From contig JAHLLG010000001.1 in the NCBI GenBank assembly GCA_020444275.1, positions 1,143,773-1,207,772 on the forward strand: DNA of 64,000 bases, given 5' to 3'. This document shows positions 20,273 to 32,452 of the stretch, in pieces (positions within the stretch are counted from its first letter, which is position 1; each line of letters opens with the position of its first letter). Below the pieces are notes generated by a model. That model was not told the DNA's origin, searched no databases, and was given only the letters and a program-made list of their open reading frames with translations. The translations under genes and the position numbers were made by a program. Origin of the DNA: Bacteroidota bacterium. Lineage in GTDB: Bacteria > Bacteroidota > Bacteroidia > Bacteroidales > UBA12077.

Positions 20273-23224
20273 TTAATTTAAAAACTCCAGTATTCTTTCA
20301 AGATTCATCTTCTGAACAGCCTGTTCTGTATTAATAAATGAATCTGCAAGCTTCGATTTCTTAGCCTTTAGTTGCTGTATTTTTTCTTCTACAGTATCCG
20401 AAGAAATAAAGCGATATACCATTACTTTTTTATCCTGCCCTATACGGTGTGTCCTGTTTATTGCTTGTTCTTCAACAGCAGGGTTCCACCACGGATCAAT
20501 AATAAAAACATAATCTGCAGCAGTTAAATTAAGCCCTACGCCACCAGCTTTGATCTGGATTAAGAACACAAAATTATCCTCGGCATCCTGAAAATCATGA
20601 ATTACCTGCTCACGGTTTTGAGTACTTCCGGTGAGCATTGAGAAAGTGTGATTATTTATTTGAAGGTAATCAGAAAACAAGTTGAGATGTTTAACATAAG
20701 CTGAAAAGATTAATACTTTATGTTTTTCTGCAATCAAACTTTCAATATTCCGGGTGATTTCATCGAATTTACCGGATTCATCAATATATTTCTCATCAAT
20801 TAATACAGGATGATTTGCAATCTGACGCAATCTGTTTAGTCCTTCAATGGCAAGAATTGTAGGCTTTTCATCTGAACTTTCAATGGTTTCCATGATCGAA
20901 TTCCTGATTTTCGATTTCTCCTCTTCGTAAATCGACTTTTGTTCATCGGTCATATCGCAATAGATAACCGATTCAGATTTATCGGGTAAATCTTTTGCTA
21001 CCTGGTTTTTTGTTCGGCGAAGAACAAAAGGTTGAATAAACTGCTGTAATTTTTCTTTCTTTTCAGGATCGGTATTTTTCTCAATGGGTTGAACAAATTC
21101 ACGCTTAAAAAAGCGCAGGTTCCCTAATAATCCCTTGTTTAGGAAGTTAAGCTGAGACCATAGATCGGTTAGTGAGTTTTCAATTGGTGTTCCGGTTAAA
21201 ACCAATCGGTGTTTAGATTTTAGCTGATTTACGGCTTTGTAAATTTTAGAGTCGGGATTTTTGATGTACTGACTTTCATCAAGAATTACATAATAAAACT
21301 TAAATGATGTAAGTAAATCTATCTCGTTCCTAACAATTCCATAGGTTGTTAATATGATATCAAAATCTTTAAATAGCCTGATATCTTTTGGCCTGTTTTG
21401 CCCAATAAACTTAAAGCAACTTAAATCAGGTGTAAACTTCTTGATTTCTTCTTCCCAGTTATGGATAAGTGATGTGGGCATTACAATTAATGATGTTGCT
21501 GAGGTTGGAGTATTTTTCAGACTAACCTGGTCGAAAATGCTTAGTTGTGCCAGCGAGGATTTTTGTTCAGGTTCATAGTTTTCTCCATTAACTTTACCTT
21601 TTGCGTTAAGCAGCAGGGTAAGCGTTTGAATGGTTTTTCCAAGTCCCATATCGTCGGCCAGGCAACCACCAAACTGGTTTTCCTGTATTAGTTGCATCCA
21701 ACTATATCCTTCTTGCTGATAAGGCCTTAATTGAGCATTTAATCCTTTCGGAATTTCAGGAGTGTTTTTATTAAAATCAGATAATAGAGTTTGATACTTT
21801 TCTATAATCGATTTACCTTTTTCAGGCGCACTGGTTTCGAGTAATCCAAAATGATGCTTATCTAACTGAAGGTGCTGATCAACATCTCGTCCAAACTGGA
21901 AAAGCTCTGTATATTGCTCGAACCATTCTTTGGGTAGAATCGTAATTTCACCATTGGGTAATTTATACTCTCTGTTTCCGTTTAAAATATTTTTTCTGAA
22001 CTTAGTAAAGGGAATCTCATATTCACCAATAATCACTTTTATATGCAAATCAAACCAATCATTATCTTCTTTAATGTCAGAATTAATTTCCGGGGTAAAC
22101 AGTGCATACTGATTCTCTAATTTTTTCTGTATAAGGGTAATACTCAGATTTCGAATAACTAATTTCGCAGTGCTTAACCAATGAATGAATTCATGCAGTC
22201 GTTCTTCTTTATCAAGTTTTTCTATTGATTCAGGAACAAAAAGTGCTTCGTTATAGTTTTTTAATCCAAGAGATTCAAGCTGATTGATTATACCATTCTC
22301 CCAGGTAAAATCTCTTTCAACTTTAATGAAATCATAGTTTTTCTGGTTTTCGTCCAAACGCACCGAGGAGTTTGCACCCTTATTAGCTAAAAATTTAATT
22401 TTATCATTATACCAAAATGAAAGAATTAAGGTTGCCTTGCCTTCCAAATCATTTTCAAAACTTAATTCGGCTCTTTTAGTTGATATTTCCTTGTTAATAC
22501 TAAAACCAAATGGCTTTACATTATATTGCTTGATAGTTTCAAGTGCAAAAGTTTCGAACCACTTTTTTTCCGATGATTTGGGAATATGAATACAATCCTT
22601 CTGAAAAAACGGCAGTAATTTTTTGGCATTAATATCATTAAAAATAAAGAGCTTATTCTCAATAATAATTCGACAAGGATCTTCAGTTACTATAAAATGA
22701 GGTTTCTCGAGTAGGTTTAGTTCTTTGTTGTTATGGCGGATACTCAAAAAATATTGACTTTCATTTTCAAGTTTACTGATATTAAAGATGGCCTGAGCGT
22801 ATCCCTTCTTTACTTCAATTTTTTCATCAGAATTAATATATTTTGGTTTTTCTTTAAAGTACAGGTCAATGTCCATTTTCTGAAGTAAATCAGTACATTT
22901 TACTAATCTTTTCTCAATGAATGGTCGGATATGTTCATCGACAAAATCCTTTTTTAATTTATGGATGAAATCAACCGTGGTTTGCCCTCTTTTTTTTGAG
23001 AAAATCTTATGTAAGTTTTGATCGCTGTATTCATCAATCCATTGAATAAGTTGCTTTTCGTTCTCTGAGAAACTGTCAAGGTATTTGTTAATATTGAGTT
23101 TAGATAGTTTAGCTTCAATATGATAAAATCCATGATTGGGTTTTATAATAATAATATATGGAACCATTATTAAACCAAACAATGGATGATCAACTATACC
23201 TATTACAAATTCTTTTCGTTGCAT
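20273..23224 (-). CDS. SNF2 family DNA-dependent ATPase/helicase
   Basis: A 983-residue Swi2/Snf2-type ATPase. The N-terminal half (to about 480) is poorly conserved and lacks a recognisable SWIM zinc motif. The motor has Walker A DDMGLGKT (about 525), the DESQ box in VILDESQYIKN (about 650), LTGTPIENSLTDLWSQL, and the C-terminal helicase lobe with QIKAGGVGLNLTAADYV and the arginine-finger motif NRTHRIGQ. Bacterial members translocate on double-stranded DNA and relate to RapA and other transcription or repair remodellers. It is not next to restriction or defence genes here, so a housekeeping role is more likely. The ATG at 23224 fits the first recognisable residues. Confidence 0.92.
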   Translation of the reverse strand: MQRKEFVIGIVDHPLFGLIMVPYIIIIKPNHGFYHIEAKLSKLNINKYLDSFSENEKQLIQWIDEYSDQNLHKIFSKKRGQTTVDFIHKLKKDFVDEHIRPFIEKRLVKCTDLLQKMDIDLYFKEKPKYINSDEKIEVKKGYAQAIFNISKLENESQYFLSIRHNNKELNLLEKPHFIVTEDPCRIIIENKLFIFNDINAKKLLPFFQKDCIHIPKSSEKKWFETFALETIKQYNVKPFGFSINKEISTKRAELSFENDLEGKATLILSFWYNDKIKFLANKGANSSVRLDENQKNYDFIKVERDFTWENGIINQLESLGLKNYNEALFVPESIEKLDKEERLHEFIHWLSTAKLVIRNLSITLIQKKLENQYALFTPEINSDIKEDNDWFDLHIKVIIGEYEIPFTKFRKNILNGNREYKLPNGEITILPKEWFEQYTELFQFGRDVDQHLQLDKHHFGLLETSAPEKGKSIIEKYQTLLSDFNKNTPEIPKGLNAQLRPYQQEGYSWMQLIQENQFGGCLADDMGLGKTIQTLTLLLNAKGKVNGENYEPEQKSSLAQLSIFDQVSLKNTPTSATSLIVMPTSLIHNWEEEIKKFTPDLSCFKFIGQNRPKDIRLFKDFDIILTTYGIVRNEIDLLTSFKFYYVILDESQYIKNPDSKIYKAVNQLKSKHRLVLTGTPIENSLTDLWSQLNFLNKGLLGNLRFFKREFVQPIEKNTDPEKKEKLQQFIQPFVLRRTKNQVAKDLPDKSESVIYCDMTDEQKSIYEEEKSKIRNSIMETIESSDEKPTILAIEGLNRLRQIANHPVLIDEKYIDESGKFDEITRNIESLIAEKHKVLIFSAYVKHLNLFSDYLQINNHTFSMLTGSTQNREQVIHDFQDAEDNFVFLIQIKAGGVGLNLTAADYVFIIDPWWNPAVEEQAINRTHRIGQDKKVMVYRFISSDTVEEKIQQLKAKKSKLADSFINTEQAVQKMNLERILEFLN

Positions 23225-23714
23225 TAAATTCAGAATCTACTTTTTCAAAAATCTTGTAAAAGTATGAATTATTGTTGATCTGGTGATGAGTAGAATCTTC
23301 TTTTTTTTTATAAATATAGTATAGTAAACTTAACCAGTGAATTAAAATATGGTTAAGTTCAGTTATGAAATTAAAAGAATGTTTGTCGGCAGTTTTGGTG
23401 ACCACAGAGTTTAGTATGAAGTTATTTTACATGTTATAGAATAGTTTTTTAATTGACATTTGTTCATAGCATCGCATAAGATAATTTATAAATTTGTCGA
23501 GAATTAAAATATATAAATATAAAGATAATTAAATATAAACAATTGGGTTTAATAATTAGAATTATTTTAAATAGGTATTATAAAAGCCAATTAATACAAG
23601 TTTTGGTATAAAACTATTATAGGACATATAATAAGGTTTGCTATTAAGGAATCAAAATTTTATTATTGGTTATTATTTTCGAAACCATTAATTATAAACT
23701 AAGCGTTTTTAGCT
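23225..23714. other. 490-bp AT-rich intergenic region between divergent genes
   Basis: Very AT-rich, no convincing gene on either strand. It must hold the promoters for the SNF2 gene (minus) and the redox operon (plus); a good candidate for the latter is at 23637-23668. No terminator, tRNA or riboswitch was recognised. Confidence 0.5.
23637..23668 (+). promoter_or_regulatory. candidate promoter of the redox operon
   Basis: TTTG at 23637-23640, a 20-nt spacer, then TATTATTG at 23661-23668, one mismatch from TAnnTTTG. It is 46 nt before the first ATG of the operon. This is the best-spaced Bacteroidota-type promoter match I found in the window. Confidence 0.55.
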
Positions 23715-24233
23715 ATGCGAGTAAAACGAATACTACAGGAAAAGGAGACTGCACTGCAGGATTCCGTGGATCTTACCTTAATTGATCCCTTAATTGAAAA
23801 ATATAAAAGCAAGAAAGGTAGCATGATTCCTATTTTACAAGGAACACAAAATATGTATGGTTATCTGCCCGAAGAAGCTTTTATAAAAATTGCTGAACTA
23901 ACAGGTTTAAAGTTAAGTGAAATGTATGGAGTGGCTACATTTTACACCCAGTTCAGATTAAATCCGGTTGGAAAACATATTATTAAAGTTTGCCATGGTA
24001 CCGCTTGCCATGTGCAAAATGCCACAGCAATTTCCGAAGCAATTGAAGATGCTTTAGATATTAAAGATGGCGAAACTACCGAAGACAGATTATTCACATT
24101 AGAATCTGTTGCTTGTCTTGGTTGTTGCTCGTTAGCTCCGGTAATGATGATCGGAGATGAAACCTACGGAAAACTTACTGGAAAGCAAGCAGTAAAAATC
24201 GTAAAGGAGATCAAGATTAAAGAAAGTAATTAA
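23715..24233 (+). CDS. NuoE-like [2Fe-2S] thioredoxin-fold subunit (HydC/HndA/StnA type)
   Basis: A 172-residue electron-transfer subunit, likely cytosolic, with a helical N-terminal part and a thioredoxin-like [2Fe-2S] domain. The ligands are Cys93 and Cys98 (VCHGTACHV) and Cys134 and Cys138 (ACLGCCSLAP), the standard C-x4-C...C-x3-C spacing. The family is found in complex I (NuoE), bifurcating hydrogenases and transhydrogenases. It is first of an operon with a NuoF-like protein (32 nt downstream) and the large fusion subunit, so it is the small subunit of a heterotrimer. The absence of membrane subunits argues against complex I. Confidence 0.9.
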   Translation: MRVKRILQEKETALQDSVDLTLIDPLIEKYKSKKGSMIPILQGTQNMYGYLPEEAFIKIAELTGLKLSEMYGVATFYTQFRLNPVGKHIIKVCHGTACHVQNATAISEAIEDALDIKDGETTEDRLFTLESVACLGCCSLAPVMMIGDETYGKLTGKQAVKIVKEIKIKESN

Positions 24234-24265
24234 TTCATTCCAACAGGACCACAAAAAAAGTAATC

Positions 24266-26044
24266 ATGGAAAAAACGAAAGTTTTAGTAGGACTAGCAAG
24301 CTGTGGAATTGCGGCTGGTGCCAATAAAGTATATAATAAGCTATTAGCTTTACAAGAAACAGATAAATTAGATATTGAATTAAAGAAAACAGGTTGTATC
24401 GGAATGTGCTACCGCGAGCCTTTGGTTGAAATAATCGACGAAACAGGTTCGTATTTATATGGTGAAATAGATGAAGAAAAGGCAGTTGAGATTTTCGATA
24501 AACATCTAAAGCAAAGCGAGCCGGTTAAAGATTATGTTGTAAAAAGTGATCTTTTTAAGGCAAAAGATGATTCATTTTGGGAAGGACAGGTTAAGATTGC
24601 ACTCAGAAATTGCGGAGTAATCGATCCTGAAAACATTGAAGAATATGAGGAACAAGGTGGATATAAAGCATTGGAGAAAATCCTGAAAGAAAAGATTAGT
24701 CAGGAAGATGTTATCCAAACCGTTTTAGATTCAGGTATTCGCGGACGTGGTGGTGGAGGGTTTCCCACCGGTTTAAAATGGAGATTTGCCTATAAATATA
24801 AATCAGATCAGAAATATGTGATTTGTAATGCCGATGAAGGTGATCCAGGAGCATTCATGGATCGATCATTACTGGAAGGTGATCCACATGCAGTGCTTGA
24901 GGGATTGGCTATTGGAGGTTACGCTATTGGGGCTAGTGAAGGTGTAATCTATTGTAGAGCAGAATATCCATTGGCTATAAAACGATTAAATATTGCCATT
25001 GAGCAAGCGCGCGAAAAAGGATATCTTGGCAAAAATATTATGGGAGTTAAAGGTTTCGATTTTGACTTATATGTTAAAGAGGGTGCAGGAGCATTTGTTT
25101 GTGGCGAAGAAACAGCACTTATTGCTTCCATTGAAGGTGAACGCGGAATGCCACGAAAACGTCCTCCGTTTCCTGCCGAAGCAGGTCTTTGGGCAAAACC
25201 AACTAACAATAATAATGTAGAAACTTACGCAAATATTCCATACATATTTTTAAACGGACCAGAATCGTATTCAAAATATGGAACCGAAAAAAGTAAGGGA
25301 ACTAAAGTATTTGCGTTAACAGGTAAAATTAATCATGGTGGGTCGGTTGAAGTTCCCATGGGAGTTTCCATACGAGATATTATTTTTAAGCTGGGCGGAG
25401 GAATTACCGATGGTAAAAAGTTTAAAGCTGTTCAGCTTGGAGGTCCTTCGGGAGGATGTATTCCTGAATATCTTGCCGACACAATTGTTGATTATGATTC
25501 TGTTACAGCTACCGGAGCAATTATGGGATCCGGAGGTATGGTTGTAATGGACGAAACAACATGTATGGTTGATATAGCTAGATTTTTCCTCGATTTTACT
25601 GTTAAAGAATCATGCGGAAAGTGTACTTTCTGTCGCATGGGAACCAAAAGAATGTTAGAAATACTTGAAAGAATTACGCAAGGCGAAGGTAAAGAAGGTG
25701 ATATTGAAAAACTGCAGGAGCTAGCTTATCAAATTAAAGATAGCTCACTTTGTGGTTTAGGTCAAACTGCTCCAAATCCTGTACTTACAACTATAAAGTA
25801 TTTTAGACACGAGTATGAAGCTCATATTAAGGATAAGAAATGTCCTGCTAAGAATTGTAAAAAACTACTTACATATACTGTCGATCCTGAAAAATGTACC
25901 GGTTGTACAGTTTGTGCTAAAAATTGCCCAACCAATGCCATTGATGGTGAACGAAAAGAGGTACATACAATTAGGCAGGATGCATGCATTCAGTGTGGTA
26001 TGTGTTATAGTAAATGTAAGTTTGATGCTATTATTTTATCATAA
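24266..26044 (+). CDS. NuoF-like NADH/FMN/Fe-S subunit (HydB/StnB type)
   Basis: A 592-residue flavoprotein subunit that binds NAD(H) and FMN. Three parts are visible. Residues 1-100 form a [2Fe-2S] thioredoxin-like domain with Cys13, Cys44 and Cys48. The NuoF core has GIRGRGGGGFPTGLKWRF, NADEGDPGAFMDR, EGAGAFVCGEETALIASIEG and the [4Fe-4S] ligands in SCGKCTFCRMG. The C-terminus has two ferredoxin [4Fe-4S] motifs, CTGCTVCAKNCPTNAI and CIQCGMCYSKCKFDAI. This N- and C-terminally extended form is the one found in electron-bifurcating HydABC-type enzymes, where it oxidises or reduces NADH and ferredoxin. It precedes the fusion subunit by 48 nt. Confidence 0.92.
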   Translation: MEKTKVLVGLASCGIAAGANKVYNKLLALQETDKLDIELKKTGCIGMCYREPLVEIIDETGSYLYGEIDEEKAVEIFDKHLKQSEPVKDYVVKSDLFKAKDDSFWEGQVKIALRNCGVIDPENIEEYEEQGGYKALEKILKEKISQEDVIQTVLDSGIRGRGGGGFPTGLKWRFAYKYKSDQKYVICNADEGDPGAFMDRSLLEGDPHAVLEGLAIGGYAIGASEGVIYCRAEYPLAIKRLNIAIEQAREKGYLGKNIMGVKGFDFDLYVKEGAGAFVCGEETALIASIEGERGMPRKRPPFPAEAGLWAKPTNNNNVETYANIPYIFLNGPESYSKYGTEKSKGTKVFALTGKINHGGSVEVPMGVSIRDIIFKLGGGITDGKKFKAVQLGGPSGGCIPEYLADTIVDYDSVTATGAIMGSGGMVVMDETTCMVDIARFFLDFTVKESCGKCTFCRMGTKRMLEILERITQGEGKEGDIEKLQELAYQIKDSSLCGLGQTAPNPVLTTIKYFRHEYEAHIKDKKCPAKNCKKLLTYTVDPEKCTGCTVCAKNCPTNAIDGERKEVHTIRQDACIQCGMCYSKCKFDAIILS

Positions 26045-26092
26045 TTTCAAACTTAAAATGATAAATGAAACATTAACTAAAGTAGAAATAAA

Positions 26093-29000
26093 ATGAGCGA
26101 TCAACTAAATATAATTCTAAACGGAAAAAATATAAAAGGAAACCAGGGAGATACAATCCTTGAATTAGCAAAAAGAACTGGAATAGAAATTCCAACATTG
26201 TGTAACGACCCCAGGTTAAAACCATTCTCATCTTGCTTTGTGTGCGTTGTTGAAATTGAAGGAATGAAAGGAATGCAACCGTCCTGTTCAACAGTAATTC
26301 AGGAAGGAATGAAGATCGAAACAGAAAACGAAAAGGTAAAAGCAGCAAGAAAGACAGCGCTGGATTTAATGCTAAGTAATCACTACGCTGATTGCGAAGC
26401 ACCTTGTAAGCAAACTTGTCCTGCAGGTGTTGATGTGCAAGGATACATATCATTAATTGAAAAGGGTTTATACAGCGAGGCAATTGAATTAATAAAACAA
26501 ACGAATCCTTTACCTGCAATTTGTGGTAGAGTATGTGTGCGTCCTTGTGAGGTAGCTTGTCGTCGTAATTATTTAGACGAAGGTGCTGCAGTTGGAATCG
26601 ATTACATGAAGCGATTTGCTGCCGATATGGATCTGCTTTCGGAAACAAGATATGTTCCTAAAGTGGCCCCTTCAACAGGGAAAAAAGTGGCCATAATTGG
26701 TGCTGGACCTGGAGGATTATCATCAGCCTATTTCTTACAACAAAAAGGTCATCAGTGCGATATTTTTGAGGCAAGTCCGAATCCTGGAGGTTGGTTAAGA
26801 TACGGGATTCCGGAATACCGATTACCTAACGATATTTTAGATAAAGAAGTAGCTGCAGTTACAGAACTGGGAGCAAATATTCACTATAATAAAAAACTAG
26901 GAGATAATCTAAGTTATAAAGAACTTCAGAAAGATTATGATTCGGTAATTCTTACCATTGGTTCACAACGTGGAACATTAATTGGTTGCGAAGGAGACGA
27001 TGCAGAGAATGTATTTTCTGGTATCGATTTTCTTCGAAACATGGAAATGACAGGTCAGAAATACGACTTTTCAGGAAAGACAGTAGCTGTAGTTGGTGGT
27101 GGAAATACTGCAATGGATTGTTGTCGAACATCACTTCGTTGTGGTGCAGAAAAAGTATATGTTATTTACCGACGTACAGAAAAAGAGATGCCTGCAAATC
27201 CAATAGAAATTCACGAGTCTAAGATAGAAGGTGTTGAGTATCTTTTCTTAACAAATCCTGCTAAGGTTAATAAGGATAAGGATGGTAAATTAAAATCGAT
27301 GACCTGCCTGAAGATGGAATTAGGCGAACCTGATGCTTCTGGTCGTCGTCGTCCGGTGCCTATTGAAGGTTCAGAATTTGATATCGAATTGGATTATGCA
27401 CTTGCTGCTATTGGTCAGAAGACTGATGTTAATTTCTTGGACGATATTAATAAAAACGCTAAAGATGGTAAGTTAGAAATTAATCGTTGGGGTGATATTG
27501 ATGCAGATCAAAACACATTACAAACGGGAATCAAATCGATGTTTGCTGCCGGTGATGGTGTTACAGGACCTGCTACGATTATAGAAGCTATTCAGCAAGC
27601 GCAGGTTGCTACACGAAGTTGTGATCAATATCTAAAAGGCGAAGAGCTAAAAGCCGAACCTAAAGAGTTTATAAGTAAAAGAGAAAACTTTAAAGAGTTA
27701 AGCGCTGATGATTTCTTAGGTAGATATCAAAAGCAGATTCGTGAAGAAATGCCGGTTCTTCCAGCAGAAGATCGTGTGAACTTTAAAGAGGTAGAGTTGG
27801 GTTATGAAGATGATAAAGTAGCCAAACATGAAGCTGAACGTTGTCTGGAATGTGGCTGTACTGAGTTTTTTACTTGTGACTTGAAAAAGTTTGCAACCCA
27901 ATACGATGCCGATCAAAAACATTTTGAAGGAGATTATCACGCACATGAATTGGATTTTTCACATCCATACATCGAGATTGATAATAACAAATGTATTTTA
28001 TGTGCGCGTTGTGTAAGAATTTGTAAAGAGGTTGTTGGCGCTAATGCATTGGGGTTAGTAAATAGAGGTTTTGATACGATTATTGCTCCAAGTATGGGAA
28101 ATTCATTAACAGAAACAGATTGTGAATCATGCGGAATGTGTATTTCAACATGTCCGACAGGTGCAATAACAGAAAATGTTGCATTTAAACCAGGTCCGGT
28201 TAAGCTTGACAAGGTAAATACGCTGTGCCATTATTGTTCGGTTGGTTGTGAGGTTGAGTATCATCACAAGTCTGAATTTGTATGGCGTGTAACGGGTAAA
28301 GAAGGCCAGGTGAATAAAGATGGAAATATTTGTCGATATCCTAAGTTTGGATATGGAGTAATGAATGATCCGGCAAGAATTACACAACCATTATTAAAAG
28401 TTGATGGAAATTTCGAAGTCATTAGCTGGCAAAAAGCATTTGATGTTATTGCCGATGAAATAAAAGGTGTTGATCCTGACGAAAATGGTTTCTTCGCTGG
28501 CGCCCGGTTAAGTAACGAAGAGATGTATATGATCCAGAAACTGGCAAGAGCAGGAGCTAAAACGAATAATGTTACCAGTTTCCATTATGTTGGTCAGGGT
28601 AGATGGTATGGTAATAATTCTATTGCAAATGTTCCGTTTGATCAAATTAAAGATGCAAGTAAAATTTACATCTTAGGATCAGAGGTGAATATGGATAATG
28701 CCGTAGTAAGCTTTATGATCAATAATGCAAGGGAAATGAATAACATACCTGTTGAATTGATTACAGATAAAGACTTAAGCGCACTCGAACACAAAGTAGA
28801 TGAGGTTGTTAAAATAAAATCTTACTACCATTTTATTAAGGCTGTTAATTATAAGTTAATTGAGAACGGATTACAGAACGATCTATTTATAAAAGATAAC
28901 TGCGAAGGATTCAGTGAGTATAAAAAGAACCTGGCGAATGAAAATTATGAACAATTGGTAAAAGAAGCAGGTGTTTGCTGTCAGGGAGTTATAGAGGAGT

Positions 29001-29827
29001 TTGCAGAAAAGTACAATAAAGAGATCAATGCAGTTCTTGTATTTTCTGAAAAAGAGGTGTCATCTAATGTTAGTCGCGAGTTGTATAACCTGGCTATGAT
29101 TACAGGTAAATTAGGTAAAACAGCGAACGGATTAATTCCATTGAAAGAAAAGAATAATTCACAGGGGTTATTTGATATGGGAGTTTCTTCGAAGAATGGA
29201 GTTGGAAACATCGATTTATCAGATAAGAAGTATGCTAAAAAGCTTATTAAAAAGTGGAAAATTGATGCATTACCGGAACAGGGAGAAAAATGCACGAAAG
29301 ATCTATTAAACGAAGGATTAATCAAGAAATTCTATATTTTTGGTGAAGACCCTGTTGGTTGCAGTGTGGATAAATCAAAAATCCAGAAGTGGTTTGCCGA
29401 CGCAGAATTTGTTATGGTTCAGGACTATTTTATGACCGAAACAGCGCAAAAGGCAAACTTAGTACTTCCAGCAACTTTCCCTGTAGAAACATCTGGTAGT
29501 TTTACAAATACACAGAAAAATATCCAGACGTTCGAAAAGCAGTTTAAAGGAAAAGTTGAGATGGAAAATTATATGCAACTTGTGAACATTTATAACAAAT
29601 TTGCTGATATGAAGGCACATTCGGTTGATGACATTAGCAAGGAAATCTTTGAATTGTTATCTGATGTGAAGAAGAATGAAAAGTTCGAGTTTGTATTTAC
29701 AGAAAAGGATAATAAGAATAAGCTCTTTAAACATGGTTGCGATTTTGTTGTGAAATATTTCGACAATCATTTTAAGGAATCATTCGATACAGCAAAAGAG
29801 CATATAAAAGTTGCAGTTAAAAACTAA
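26093..29827 (+). CDS. fusion subunit: 2Fe-2S + GltD/NfnB-like NAD(P)H-FAD module + ferredoxin + degenerate molybdopterin oxidoreductase domain
   Basis: A 1244-residue modular redox protein. Residues 1-85 form a NuoG-type [2Fe-2S] domain (Cys37, 48, 51, 65). Residues 95-160 form a GltD-type [4Fe-4S] region (Cys101, 105, 109, 144, 148, 152, 156). FAD binding is at 200-210 (IIGAGPGGLS) and NAD(P) binding at 332-361, with GGGNTAMD and YRR, the latter pointing to NADPH. Two ferredoxin clusters use Cys634/637/640/644 and 677/680/683/687. A molybdopterin-oxidoreductase domain starts with C-x2-C-x3-C-x27-C (Cys712, 715, 719, 747) and ends with VLPATFPVETSGSF. The Cys or Sec that ligates Mo in formate dehydrogenases is absent: the region after TNNV reads TSFHYVGQGRWYGNN. 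No H-cluster motif is present. Inference: the Nfn-like subunit of a bifurcating transhydrogenase (Stn/Bfu type). Confidence 0.85.
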   Translation: MSDQLNIILNGKNIKGNQGDTILELAKRTGIEIPTLCNDPRLKPFSSCFVCVVEIEGMKGMQPSCSTVIQEGMKIETENEKVKAARKTALDLMLSNHYADCEAPCKQTCPAGVDVQGYISLIEKGLYSEAIELIKQTNPLPAICGRVCVRPCEVACRRNYLDEGAAVGIDYMKRFAADMDLLSETRYVPKVAPSTGKKVAIIGAGPGGLSSAYFLQQKGHQCDIFEASPNPGGWLRYGIPEYRLPNDILDKEVAAVTELGANIHYNKKLGDNLSYKELQKDYDSVILTIGSQRGTLIGCEGDDAENVFSGIDFLRNMEMTGQKYDFSGKTVAVVGGGNTAMDCCRTSLRCGAEKVYVIYRRTEKEMPANPIEIHESKIEGVEYLFLTNPAKVNKDKDGKLKSMTCLKMELGEPDASGRRRPVPIEGSEFDIELDYALAAIGQKTDVNFLDDINKNAKDGKLEINRWGDIDADQNTLQTGIKSMFAAGDGVTGPATIIEAIQQAQVATRSCDQYLKGEELKAEPKEFISKRENFKELSADDFLGRYQKQIREEMPVLPAEDRVNFKEVELGYEDDKVAKHEAERCLECGCTEFFTCDLKKFATQYDADQKHFEGDYHAHELDFSHPYIEIDNNKCILCARCVRICKEVVGANALGLVNRGFDTIIAPSMGNSLTETDCESCGMCISTCPTGAITENVAFKPGPVKLDKVNTLCHYCSVGCEVEYHHKSEFVWRVTGKEGQVNKDGNICRYPKFGYGVMNDPARITQPLLKVDGNFEVISWQKAFDVIADEIKGVDPDENGFFAGARLSNEEMYMIQKLARAGAKTNNVTSFHYVGQGRWYGNNSIANVPFDQIKDASKIYILGSEVNMDNAVVSFMINNAREMNNIPVELITDKDLSALEHKVDEVVKIKSYYHFIKAVNYKLIENGLQNDLFIKDNCEGFSEYKKNLANENYEQLVKEAGVCCQGVIEEFAEKYNKEINAVLVFSEKEVSSNVSRELYNLAMITGKLGKTANGLIPLKEKNNSQGLFDMGVSSKNGVGNIDLSDKKYAKKLIKKWKIDALPEQGEKCTKDLLNEGLIKKFYIFGEDPVGCSVDKSKIQKWFADAEFVMVQDYFMTETAQKANLVLPATFPVETSGSFTNTQKNIQTFEKQFKGKVEMENYMQLVNIYNKFADMKAHSVDDISKEIFELLSDVKKNEKFEFVFTEKDNKNKLFKHGCDFVVKYFDNHFKESFDTAKEHIKVAVKN

Positions 29828-29851
29828 ACGAAAAAAATAAAACGAATCAAC

Positions 29852-30307
29852 ATGGAAAAATTTAGTTCAATTGATGAGATTCTTGATTTTGCAATTAATG
29901 CAGAACAAGAGGCTGTTGATTTTTATAATCAGTTAGCAGAAAACTCTAAAACAGAAGATATGCGACTCGTATTTACCTCTTTTGCACAAGAAGAGATAAG
30001 TCATAAGGCTCGCCTTACAACAATAAAAAAGGAGGGATCGTATAAAGCTGAACCGAAGCATATTGCCGATTTAAAAATCAGCAATTATATGGTTGATGTT
30101 ACACCAACTCCGGATATGACCTATCAGGAAGCTTTGGTTTTAGCTATGAATAAAGAAAAAGCTGCATTTAAGTTGTATTACGATTTAGCGAAAGTGGCCA
30201 GCAATACAGAAATGCGTGATATATTCTTATCACTTGCTCAGGAGGAATCAAAACATAAGCTGAGATTCGAAATTGAGTACGATGAATATGTTTTAAGAGA
30301 AAATTAA
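29852..30307 (+). CDS. rubrerythrin-like ferritin-superfamily diiron protein (no rubredoxin domain)
   Basis: A 151-residue four-helix bundle with two EExxH-type metal motifs, QEEISHK (about 50) and QEESKHK (about 132), and paired glutamates in AEQEAVDFYNQLAE and NKEKAAFKLYYDLAK. These supply a di-iron site as in rubrerythrin/YciF-like proteins, which reduce hydrogen peroxide in anaerobes. There is no rubredoxin Cys4 domain. It lies 24 nt after the fusion subunit and ends at a terminator, so it is probably the last gene of the redox operon, perhaps protecting oxygen-sensitive clusters. Confidence 0.85.
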   Translation: MEKFSSIDEILDFAINAEQEAVDFYNQLAENSKTEDMRLVFTSFAQEEISHKARLTTIKKEGSYKAEPKHIADLKISNYMVDVTPTPDMTYQEALVLAMNKEKAAFKLYYDLAKVASNTEMRDIFLSLAQEESKHKLRFEIEYDEYVLREN

Positions 30308-30328
30308 AATTAACTACTATCTATTAAT

Positions 30329-30362
30329 TAAGCATGACTTTATTTGTCATGCTTATTTTTTT
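30329..30362 (+). terminator. Rho-independent terminator of the redox operon
   Basis: TAAGCATGAC (30329-30338) pairs perfectly with GTCATGCTTA (30346-30355) around TTTATTT, followed by seven Ts. A textbook terminator 21 nt after the rubrerythrin stop. Confidence 0.9.
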
Positions 30363-30457
30363 ATTCAAAAGGTTCATGTAATTTTGTGAATGAATTTTTT
30401 ATTCAGAATACAATTTTTACTTGATAAATAGGTTATTAACCTGAAAAACGATTTAAG

Positions 30458-32452
30458 GTGAAAAGAACTACAATATTATTACTGATCTTTATTGCAACAC
30501 TTGGCCACTCTATAGCTCAACCCGATTCTCTTATCATTGAAAAGTCTAAGAACAAGGTGATTATTGGTGGGCAAATGTATTATGTCCATATTGTTAAGAA
30601 AGGTGAAACACTATTTTCTTTAAGTAAAGTGTATAATGTTTCGCAAAAAGAAATAGCTAAGGAAAATCCGGACATTTTTCTTGGATTACAAGTTGGACAG
30701 GCGTTAAAAATTCCGGTAACTGATAAAAAGGAAAGTGGCGATAAGTTATTAAGTAATGATTTTAATTATCATAGGGTTAAAAAAGGTCAAACATTGTACT
30801 TCTTGTCCAGAAAGTATAATGTATCACAAGAAGATATTATTGCCTGTAATCCAGATGTGCGATACGGAATAAGAGAAAACCAAATAGTTAAAATTCCAAA
30901 ATCAAAAAAAGTTGTAGATGAATTTAAAACACCCGTAAATAAGTCTATTGAGGATACCATAAAGCTTGAAGATGAGTTTATTTATCATAAGGTTGAACCT
31001 AAAGAAACCATCTATTCGCTTACTCGATTTTACGACATAGATGAAGATTTACTTTTGGAGTATAATCCATATTTAAGCGAAGGACTTAAAGTCGGGCAGG
31101 TTTTAAAAATTCCTAAAGTTGTCGAAGATGTGGAAGAGGCTACTGTATTATTAAAAACGGAAGAAACCGGAGATGATACCACATTATATAAGCAAAGAAA
31201 ATGGTTAGCCTATTCAGATTCAGTTCATTGGTCTGACTGCAGAGAATTAAGAAGATCGCAGACAGAACCTTACCAGGTAGCCGTTATGTTACCTCTTTAT
31301 TTAGAAAAGAATGATGAGGAGTTTTATATCGACTCAACCGAATTTGATGATGACGGGAATAGAATTTATGAAAAAATATATTACGATCCATTTTATGTAT
31401 ATCCCAAATCAGCACCGTTTGTTGAGTTTTATGAAGGTTTTTTATTAGCAGTTGATTCGCTGAAAAAACAAGGATTATCTATAAACCTTCATGTTTATGA
31501 TACTGAAAACGATACTGCACGAATACAAGAGATATTAAGTTTTCCTGAGCTAACAGGTATGGATTTAATTATTGGACCAATATATAATCATGAATTAAAG
31601 CTGGTTTCCGAATTTTCAGCTCAACATCAAATAAAAATGGTTTCTCCATTTACAGATAATTTAAAATTGGTTGATAAAAATCCTTATCTGTTCCAGGTGA
31701 ATCCCTCGTACACTTCCCAGATTGATGAGTTTGCCCGGTATGTTTCCGGATTTGGAGATAAAAATATTGTGCTGGTTCACAACGGAGATAGCCTGGCATA
31801 TAGTAATGTGCAAATGGTTAAGGATAAGATTTTTAACAACTTATCAGTAGATACCATGGTCAATAATATCCAGTTTAAGGAAGTCGTATTCCGTGATAGT
31901 ATTTTTGTTCTGGAGCATGCTTTAAGCGACGAAATTGAGAATGTAATTATAATACCTTCAAACGAAGAAGCATTTGTAACAAATGTGGTTACCAAATTAA
32001 ATACGCTTAAAGCTTTTGGTAATCAGATTAAAGTAGTGGGTTTATCCAGATGGCAGCGATTTAGAAATATCGATCCAGAATACTTTTTTAATCTTGAGTT
32101 ATGTATTGCTTCTCCATTTTTCGTCGACTATCATCACCAGGATGTTAAAGATTTTATACTAAAGTACAGAAAAATTTATCATACCGAACCCGACCAAATG
32201 GCAATACATGCTTATGATATAGGCACCTATTTTTTATCAGCTTTGAGAAAATATGGTGAGAACTTTGATCACTGTATATATAATTATCGGGTTGATTTAT
32301 TGCAGGCTGATTATAGATTTGTGAAATGGTACGAAGATTCCGGATTCGAAAATGTTCATGTCGATATTATTAAATATTATAATGGATACAATATTTTTAG
32401 AATAAGCGAAATGAAAGATAAGCTATCCGTTTCACAGACACGAACAAAGTAG
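30458..32452 (+). CDS. exported protein with three LysM repeats and a periplasmic-binding-like domain
   Basis: A 664-residue secreted protein with a GTG start at 30458, chosen because the codons that follow encode a signal peptide (residues 1-20, ending GHSIAQ). Three LysM peptidoglycan-binding repeats start near residues 41, 108 and 180 with YYVHIVKKGETLFSLSK, YHRVKKGQTLYFLSRKYN and YHKVEPKETIYSLTRFYD. The C-terminal about 390 residues (from PYQVAVMLPLYLE) form a type-1 periplasmic-binding fold, seen as QVAVMLPLYLE, GMDLIIGPIYN, KMVSPFTDN and FLFQVNP-like strands. Similar Bacteroidota proteins are annotated as LysM peptidoglycan-binding proteins and may work like LpoA-type activators; the role is inferred. 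Confidence 0.85.
   Translation: MKRTTILLLIFIATLGHSIAQPDSLIIEKSKNKVIIGGQMYYVHIVKKGETLFSLSKVYNVSQKEIAKENPDIFLGLQVGQALKIPVTDKKESGDKLLSNDFNYHRVKKGQTLYFLSRKYNVSQEDIIACNPDVRYGIRENQIVKIPKSKKVVDEFKTPVNKSIEDTIKLEDEFIYHKVEPKETIYSLTRFYDIDEDLLLEYNPYLSEGLKVGQVLKIPKVVEDVEEATVLLKTEETGDDTTLYKQRKWLAYSDSVHWSDCRELRRSQTEPYQVAVMLPLYLEKNDEEFYIDSTEFDDDGNRIYEKIYYDPFYVYPKSAPFVEFYEGFLLAVDSLKKQGLSINLHVYDTENDTARIQEILSFPELTGMDLIIGPIYNHELKLVSEFSAQHQIKMVSPFTDNLKLVDKNPYLFQVNPSYTSQIDEFARYVSGFGDKNIVLVHNGDSLAYSNVQMVKDKIFNNLSVDTMVNNIQFKEVVFRDSIFVLEHALSDEIENVIIIPSNEEAFVTNVVTKLNTLKAFGNQIKVVGLSRWQRFRNIDPEYFFNLELCIASPFFVDYHHQDVKDFILKYRKIYHTEPDQMAIHAYDIGTYFLSALRKYGENFDHCIYNYRVDLLQADYRFVKWYEDSGFENVHVDIIKYYNGYNIFRISEMKDKLSVSQTRTK

Follow-up and report, generated by a model that had tools for sequence, protein, structure and literature searches.

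What enzyme is produced from a bacterial operon in which NuoE- and NuoF-like subunits accompany a single protein chain that joins a GltD-like flavin module to a molybdopterin-oxidoreductase domain lacking its usual metal ligand? This question is raised by a locus within a 64,000-nucleotide stretch of DNA (hereafter the window) from a Bacteroidota bacterium of the Bacteroidales group UBA12077 (assembly GCA_020444275.1, contig JAHLLG010000001.1, positions 1,143,773 to 1,207,772). We conclude that the three genes very probably encode StnABC, a flavin-based electron-bifurcating NADH-dependent ferredoxin:NADP+ oxidoreductase of the Stn (Sporomusa-type Nfn), or Nfn-Bfu, class. This Bacteroidales StnABC is a well-supported representative of a known enzyme class and is ordinary in kind. 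The new point is the association, in related bacteria, of stnC with a fourth gene.

Architecture of the locus

Four open reading frames (ORFs) of 172, 592, 1244 and 151 codons follow one another in the same orientation (+ strand), separated by 32, 48 and 24 bases. The first, stnA (23715-24233), codes for a NuoE/HydC-like thioredoxin-fold [2Fe-2S] subunit that matches Pfam 2Fe-2S_thioredx and NCBIfam NF005722 (NuoE), the latter being the only one of the listed NCBIfam matches that surpasses its own cut-off. The second, stnB (24266-26044), codes for a NuoF/HydB-like FMN/NADH subunit composed of Complex1_51K and NADH_4Fe-4S followed by two C-terminal Fer4 stretches, which form a ferredoxin domain for two [4Fe-4S] clusters; this subunit is predicted to be the site of bifurcation. 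The third, stnC (26093-29827), encodes Fer2_4, Fer4_20, Pyr_redox_2, Fer4_Nqo3, Molybdop_Fe4S4 and Molybdopterin in a single chain, giving an N-terminal [2Fe-2S] domain, a GltD-like FAD/NADPH module, 4Fe-4S domains and an FdhF/NuoG-like domain that lacks the molybdenum ligand. Even the weakest Pfam match among the three products, that of Molybdop_Fe4S4, has an E value of 2.3e-6 and is not due to chance.

A preliminary description of this DNA had recognized the NuoE-like and extended NuoF-like subunits and the fusion of a GltD-type module to a molybdopterin-oxidoreductase domain, and both the ORFs and the Pfam matches agree with it. Its coordinates describe the three + strand genes correctly, but they also enclose the fourth ORF (29852-30307), which was passed over.

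Similarity to solved Stn complexes

The best PDB sequence matches of StnC are 9bov_A (794 bits), 8oh5_C (769 bits) and 9n5u_A (616 bits). StnB aligns with 8oh5_B across residues 5-591 (881 bits), followed by 9n5u_B (859 bits) and 9bov_B (851 bits), and then by the HydB subunits of NiFe (771 bits) and FeFe (737 bits) enzymes. The PDB titles identify 8oh5 as StnABC of Sporomusa ovata and 9bov as Nfn-ABC of Caldicellulosiruptor saccharolyticus.

The S. ovata complex (8oh5, 8oh9; PMC7483475, PMC10482914) has the same three subunits, and its StnC likewise combines a 2Fe-2S domain, GltD, NuoG-type domains and an FdhF domain devoid of catalytic activity, the bifurcating core being StnAB and the iron content about 42 Fe per StnABC (PMC10482914). 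A GltD module fused to a dead molybdopterin domain is therefore the published StnC build, with solved structures (PMC10482914, PMC7483475), and the preliminary description overstated its novelty in calling the fusion striking. Equivalents of S. ovata K170 and R239 and the C-terminal ferredoxin domain of StnB are common to both systems, whereas the window StnC is 72 residues longer and the neighbors differ, with a fourth gene here and metVF and pabAB beside S. ovata stn (PMC7483475).

The C. saccharolyticus complex (9bov, 9bp5) includes the PDB chain that best matches the window StnC, and its FdhF-like part is 27% identical in a structure alignment. A third structure of the same kind, 9n5u (NfnA, NfnB), presumably represents the Nfn-Bfu enzyme of Thermococcus sibiricus; its StnC-like chain is shorter (963 amino acids), and the T. 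sibiricus enzyme is described as lacking the cysteines of one cluster (PMC9304861). Carriers of Nfn-type BfuB already include Bacteroidetes (PMC9304861).

We placed K170 and R239 on the window StnC from its alignment with the S. ovata protein and examined them in an alignment of 87 rows, which is limited to ORFs that exceed 850 amino acids, score above 450 bits and cover the GltD part; all others were dropped. This alignment includes the window's own gene, refetched as locus L016, and many rows from the same genus. Lys173, the counterpart of the K170 that coordinates a cluster beside FAD in S. ovata (PMC10482914), is Lys in 86 of the 87 rows with a gap in the other, and Arg243 (R239) is Arg in every row. 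Ferredoxin-type ligands are present as Cys634/637/640/644 and Cys677/680/683/687.

Phylogeny of the NuoF-like subunit

NuoF-like proteins occur in several enzyme families, and the grouping of StnB was examined in a tree of 60 rows picked for spread, with row contexts read from locus neighbors. The rows comprise the window, 35 members of an 80-locus set (59 of these 80 loci have a StnA match at E ≤ 1e-8), 2 further Stn loci, 9 proteins from hydrogenase contexts, 1 from a formate dehydrogenase (FDH) context, 6 from complex I (one from E. coli) and 6 from unknown contexts, the last drawn from the 10 loci L174-L183. Hydrogenase rows are defined by gene context, with no published HydB sequence among the rows.

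The window StnB and 36 of the 37 Stn-labelled relatives form one clade of 37 Stn rows (support 96/92), inside which the window protein sits with other Bacteroidota rows. It is apart from the hydrogenase-context, FDH and complex I rows, and complex I is separate at 99/98. The Stn or Nfn-Bfu assignment offered in the preliminary description, which proposed a NuoF-like phylogeny as one check, is thus borne out by the tree, the PDB matches and the state of the molybdopterin-like domain described next.

A molybdopterin-like domain without its metal ligand

The cluster ligands Cys712, Cys715, Cys719 and Cys747 are Cys in 79, 80, 80 and 80 of the 87 rows, respectively (the codons of residues 634-747 occupy 27992-28333 on the + strand, each starting at 26093 + 3 × (residue − 1)). 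The column that would hold the molybdenum ligand contains Leu in 56 rows, Tyr in 11, Phe in 6, Ala in 3, Met, Thr, Ile and Cys in 1 each, and a gap in 7. In the window protein this residue is Leu806 (28508-28510, +); the FDH encoded in this genome has its Mo-ligating Cys there, and Tyr749 stands where that FDH has Lys. PF01568, the molybdopterin guanine dinucleotide (MGD)-binding domain, has no match in the window StnC at E ≤ 0.001, nor was it found in the protein of locus L093 (Thermosediminibacter); it is present in the FDH, which served as positive control, and in the fusion proteins of loci L133, L110 and L126. The earlier claims of retained Fe-S ligands, a missing Mo-ligating Cys and a degenerate domain therefore hold. 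Judging from these sequence features, the domain is most readily understood as a structural remnant without a molybdenum cofactor.

Decay of the domain is not supported by the data. When six relatives are compared, the domain has a nonsynonymous substitution rate (dN) 1.6-2.4 times as high as the GltD part, yet the ratio of dN to the synonymous rate (dN/dS) stays at 0.05-0.08 in the four cases that allowed its calculation. The domain looks to be under purifying selection, as would be expected because deletion of the FdhF-like domain in S. ovata left no functional complex that could be purified (PMC10482914).

Several observations count against the assignment or soften the evidence for it. The dN/dS values just given come from comparisons in which dS is near saturation. 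The molybdopterin-like fold is kept in an AlphaFold model of StnC residues 620-1244 (mean pLDDT 82, with the first 83 residues below 50), and a fold by itself cannot separate a dead domain from a live one, because a Foldseek search with this model ranks formate dehydrogenases first to fourth and 8oh5_C and 9bov_A fifth and sixth. In the tree, the Stn-labelled row L133 groups with hydrogenase-type rows instead of joining the Stn clade, four rows (L012, L194, L011 and L180) have long branches, and four rows deviate in composition. The thioredoxin-like N-terminus of StnB has no Pfam match of its own and is supported by the alignment to 8oh5_B, which starts at residue 5. Furthermore, S. ovata Cys114, which lies near cluster C7, corresponds to Val115 here, and the position is Cys in 22 of the 87 rows. 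Replacement of Cys114 by Ala costs the S. ovata enzyme half its activity, and we do not take the residue as defining for Stn membership because the same paper calls it not strictly conserved (PMC10482914). Finally, no biochemistry of a Bacteroidota Stn was found in the literature searched, which consisted of open-licence papers.

Related genes in this and other genomes

The preliminary description noted the absence of an H-cluster, and this stands: there is no H-cluster gene in the operon and no match to PF02906 anywhere on the contig that carries the window (C7). All six PF02906 matches of the genome reside on another contig (C9), where they mark FeFe-hydrogenase large domains at three sites (approximately 24-28, 51-59 and 70-77 kb), several of them beside NuoE/NuoF-like genes. 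The other NuoF-like genes of the genome are two HydB-like genes, an FDH-beta gene and a short gene next to one for an H-cluster protein. A separate NuoE-NuoF-FDH alpha set with the Cys ligand and the MGD domain is located at C7:768844-772675; its NuoF match has two TAA codons within the aligned stretch, whose start falls inside the NuoE-like match.

Among the remaining GltD-like proteins, one of the YgfK type scores above its cut-off and one of the PRK13984 type just below. One PF10418 protein is encoded elsewhere, at C9:42413. None of the seven TIGR01316 (NfnB) matches in the genome exceeds the cut-off, which agrees with the report that Stn and Nfn almost never occur together in acetogens (PMC7483475).

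At E ≤ 1e-150, stnC is present in 63 of 147 relatives, including all 20 genomes of the genus (our own among them), and in 21 of 395 genomes across the phylum, although 11 of these 21 match only the first ~650 residues. Some loci carry other fusions. L133:2618-9086, from a metagenome-assembled genome of Halanaerobiales, encodes NuoE, NuoF and a 1363-residue GltD fusion with Cys at the Mo-ligand position; its molybdopterin domain looks alive, and the set may form a bifurcating enzyme linked to formate and NADPH. L110:4983-9200 (Shewanella) and L126:4968-9206 (Vibrio tubiashii) encode GltD-molybdopterin fusions of 1406 and 1413 residues with Ala or Thr in the Mo-ligand column, and neither locus contains a StnA or StnB match. 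In the Bacteroidota locus L180 (58-3216, − strand), a NuoF-like subunit is fused straight to a GltD-like module (~1052 amino acids), and no C-terminal ferredoxin domain was found in this protein or in the scanned NuoF-like protein of L174.

A fourth gene that accompanies stnC

The fourth gene (29852-30307, +), a common neighbor of stnC in the order, encodes a 151-residue rubrerythrin/ferritin-like protein that matches PF02915 (51 bits), and a domain scan found in it no rubredoxin domain, which a rubrerythrin has in addition to its diiron four-helix domain. Both helical repeats carry an ExxH motif in each of the 25 aligned copies, which include the window's own. The predicted structure (pLDDT 88) consists of four long helices, and in a structure search its best match is TM1526, a putative ferritin-like protein (E 4e-5), with rubrerythrin 1ryt at rank 6 (E 1.6e-3). 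PDB sequence matches are the hypothetical protein 2fzf, TM1526 itself (1vjx) and 5n5e (named PFC_05175), which we take to be an encapsulin-type ferritin.

The gene was counted at E ≤ 1e-20, a threshold different from that used for stnC, and is present in 59 of the 147 relatives. It accompanies 53 of 63 stnC-positive genomes versus 6 of 84 stnC-negative ones (53 with both, 10 with stnC only, 6 with the fourth gene only and 78 with neither), giving a Fisher odds ratio of 69 that ignores kinship. The corresponding control counts for FeFe-hydrogenase are 54, 9, 52 and 32 (odds ratio 3.7). When other same-genus and same-family genomes are dropped and our own is kept, the remaining 123 genomes divide into 32, 9, 5 and 77, and the control into 33, 8, 50 and 32 (odds ratio 2.6). 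In 38 of the 53 genomes with both genes, the fourth gene is directly downstream of stnC, no more than 1.1 kb away and on the same strand; in 3 it lies 3.8-5.9 kb away on the same contig. It is on another contig in 12, which need not mean that it is distant, many of those assemblies being fragmented.

Beyond these relatives the gene is rare. Across the phylum, 3 of 395 genomes carry it, namely our own, G326 (where it adjoins stnC) and G432 (a weak match). Because it occurs in only 3 of the 80 loci, each with a Bacteroidota label, we conclude that it belongs to part of the Bacteroidota branch rather than to Stn at large. A link between Stn and a rubrerythrin-type gene was not found among the open-licence papers that the literature searches listed. 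The gene is probably co-transcribed with and functionally linked to stnABC, and its product may handle peroxide or oxygen.

A terminator-like hairpin and T-run (30329-30355, +), known by pattern match, begins 22 bases past the fourth gene. Such patterns number 3 in the region versus 3.9 (s.d. 2.0) expected in shuffles, and promoter-like sites 36 versus 28.8 (s.d. 6.4), and both were used for position only. No RNA family matches were obtained within 22800-30700.

Alternative functions

Could StnC instead use a molybdo- or tungstopterin to oxidize formate, passing the electrons to NAD(P)+ and ferredoxin? The C-terminal fold is FDH-like, NCBIfam Fdh-alpha scores 276 bits (under its cut-off of 666), and the L133 protein shows that a GltD-fused relative with a Cys ligand and MGD domain exists. 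This idea is nevertheless scarcely credible given Leu806, Tyr749 and the missing PF01568 match, the report that S. ovata Stn showed no oxidation of formate (PMC7483475), and a separate FDH in the genome that has the Cys ligand, Lys and PF01568; we therefore reject a Mo/W formate dehydrogenase. A hydrogenase of the HydABC type and complex I are rejected on the evidence of the tree and of the absence of an H-cluster gene. NfnAB shares a GltD-like NADPH module with StnC, but it has two subunits with the bifurcating FAD in NfnB (PMC10482914), whereas StnA/StnB is the expected place of the core in this complex, and we reject NfnAB because all TIGR01316 matches are below the cut-off. An enzyme of the same build might also not bifurcate at all, acting as a plain NADPH:NAD+ transhydrogenase or as a sulfur/oxygen reductase resembling the NADPH-dependent Nso of Thermococcus litoralis. 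Nso subunits are closely related (PMC7483475) and S. ovata Stn shows some uncoupled NADPH:NAD+ activity (PMC10482914), but StnB matches its S. ovata counterpart over the full length, including the dicluster domain, and non-bifurcating BfuB homologues are described as lacking the extra clusters (PMC9304861), making this option very unlikely.

A further proposal adds to Stn rather than replacing it: the fourth protein would be a dedicated diiron-type component that scavenges peroxide or oxygen, the electrons coming from the complex itself or from the ferredoxin or NADPH that it produces. Its strong co-occurrence with stnC, its position and its invariant ExxH pairs are favorable, and there are precedents in the predicted Rub-Bfu (type 4 Bfu), where a rubrerythrin-family gene likewise lies beside a BfuB operon (PMC9304861), and in a hydrogenase-rubrerythrin chimera that uses H2 to reduce H2O2 (PMC11926857). 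However, without a rubredoxin domain there is no evident entry point for electrons, 9 of 41 stnC genomes in the 123-genome set lack the gene, it is in 3 of the 80 loci and in none outside those labelled Bacteroidota, and the association counts disregard phylogeny and rest on unequal thresholds. The fold match to TM1526 makes iron storage or another role equally conceivable. The locus is not itself a Rub-Bfu, whose published definition requires BfuB and rubrerythrin without BfuA/StnC (PMC9304861), because full StnABC is present. On balance we consider a dedicated fourth component unlikely, though less so than the other alternatives.

Predicted electron path

If the complex is StnABC, its reaction, electron path and bifurcating flavin would follow from the biochemistry of the S. 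ovata and T. sibiricus enzymes. By this analogy, the FAD bound to the GltD-like portion of StnC would accept a hydride from NADPH, and electrons would pass along the StnC Fe-S chain into StnB, with the clusters by the molybdopterin-like domain forming a side branch. Bifurcation would then take place at the StnB FMN, close to the [2Fe-2S] cluster of StnA, with the electrons divided between NAD+ and ferredoxin; the dicluster domain at the StnB C-terminus is perhaps where ferredoxin docks. The direction useful to the cell is likely the reverse one, in which NADH and reduced ferredoxin yield NADPH.

Implications

The odd fusion now finds its place in a known enzyme class, rather than in a new formate-linked complex. 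Stn is thereby placed in Bacteroidales, a group for which the papers listed by the literature searches showed no assayed Stn. If the fourth protein does reduce peroxide or oxygen with electrons from the complex or its products, the balancing of NADPH, NADH and ferredoxin would be coupled to oxidative defense, in a manner distinct from Rub-Bfu since StnC is retained. The tie between this gene and stn offers a lead, open to testing, on possible connections in anaerobes between redox balancing and stress from oxygen or peroxide.

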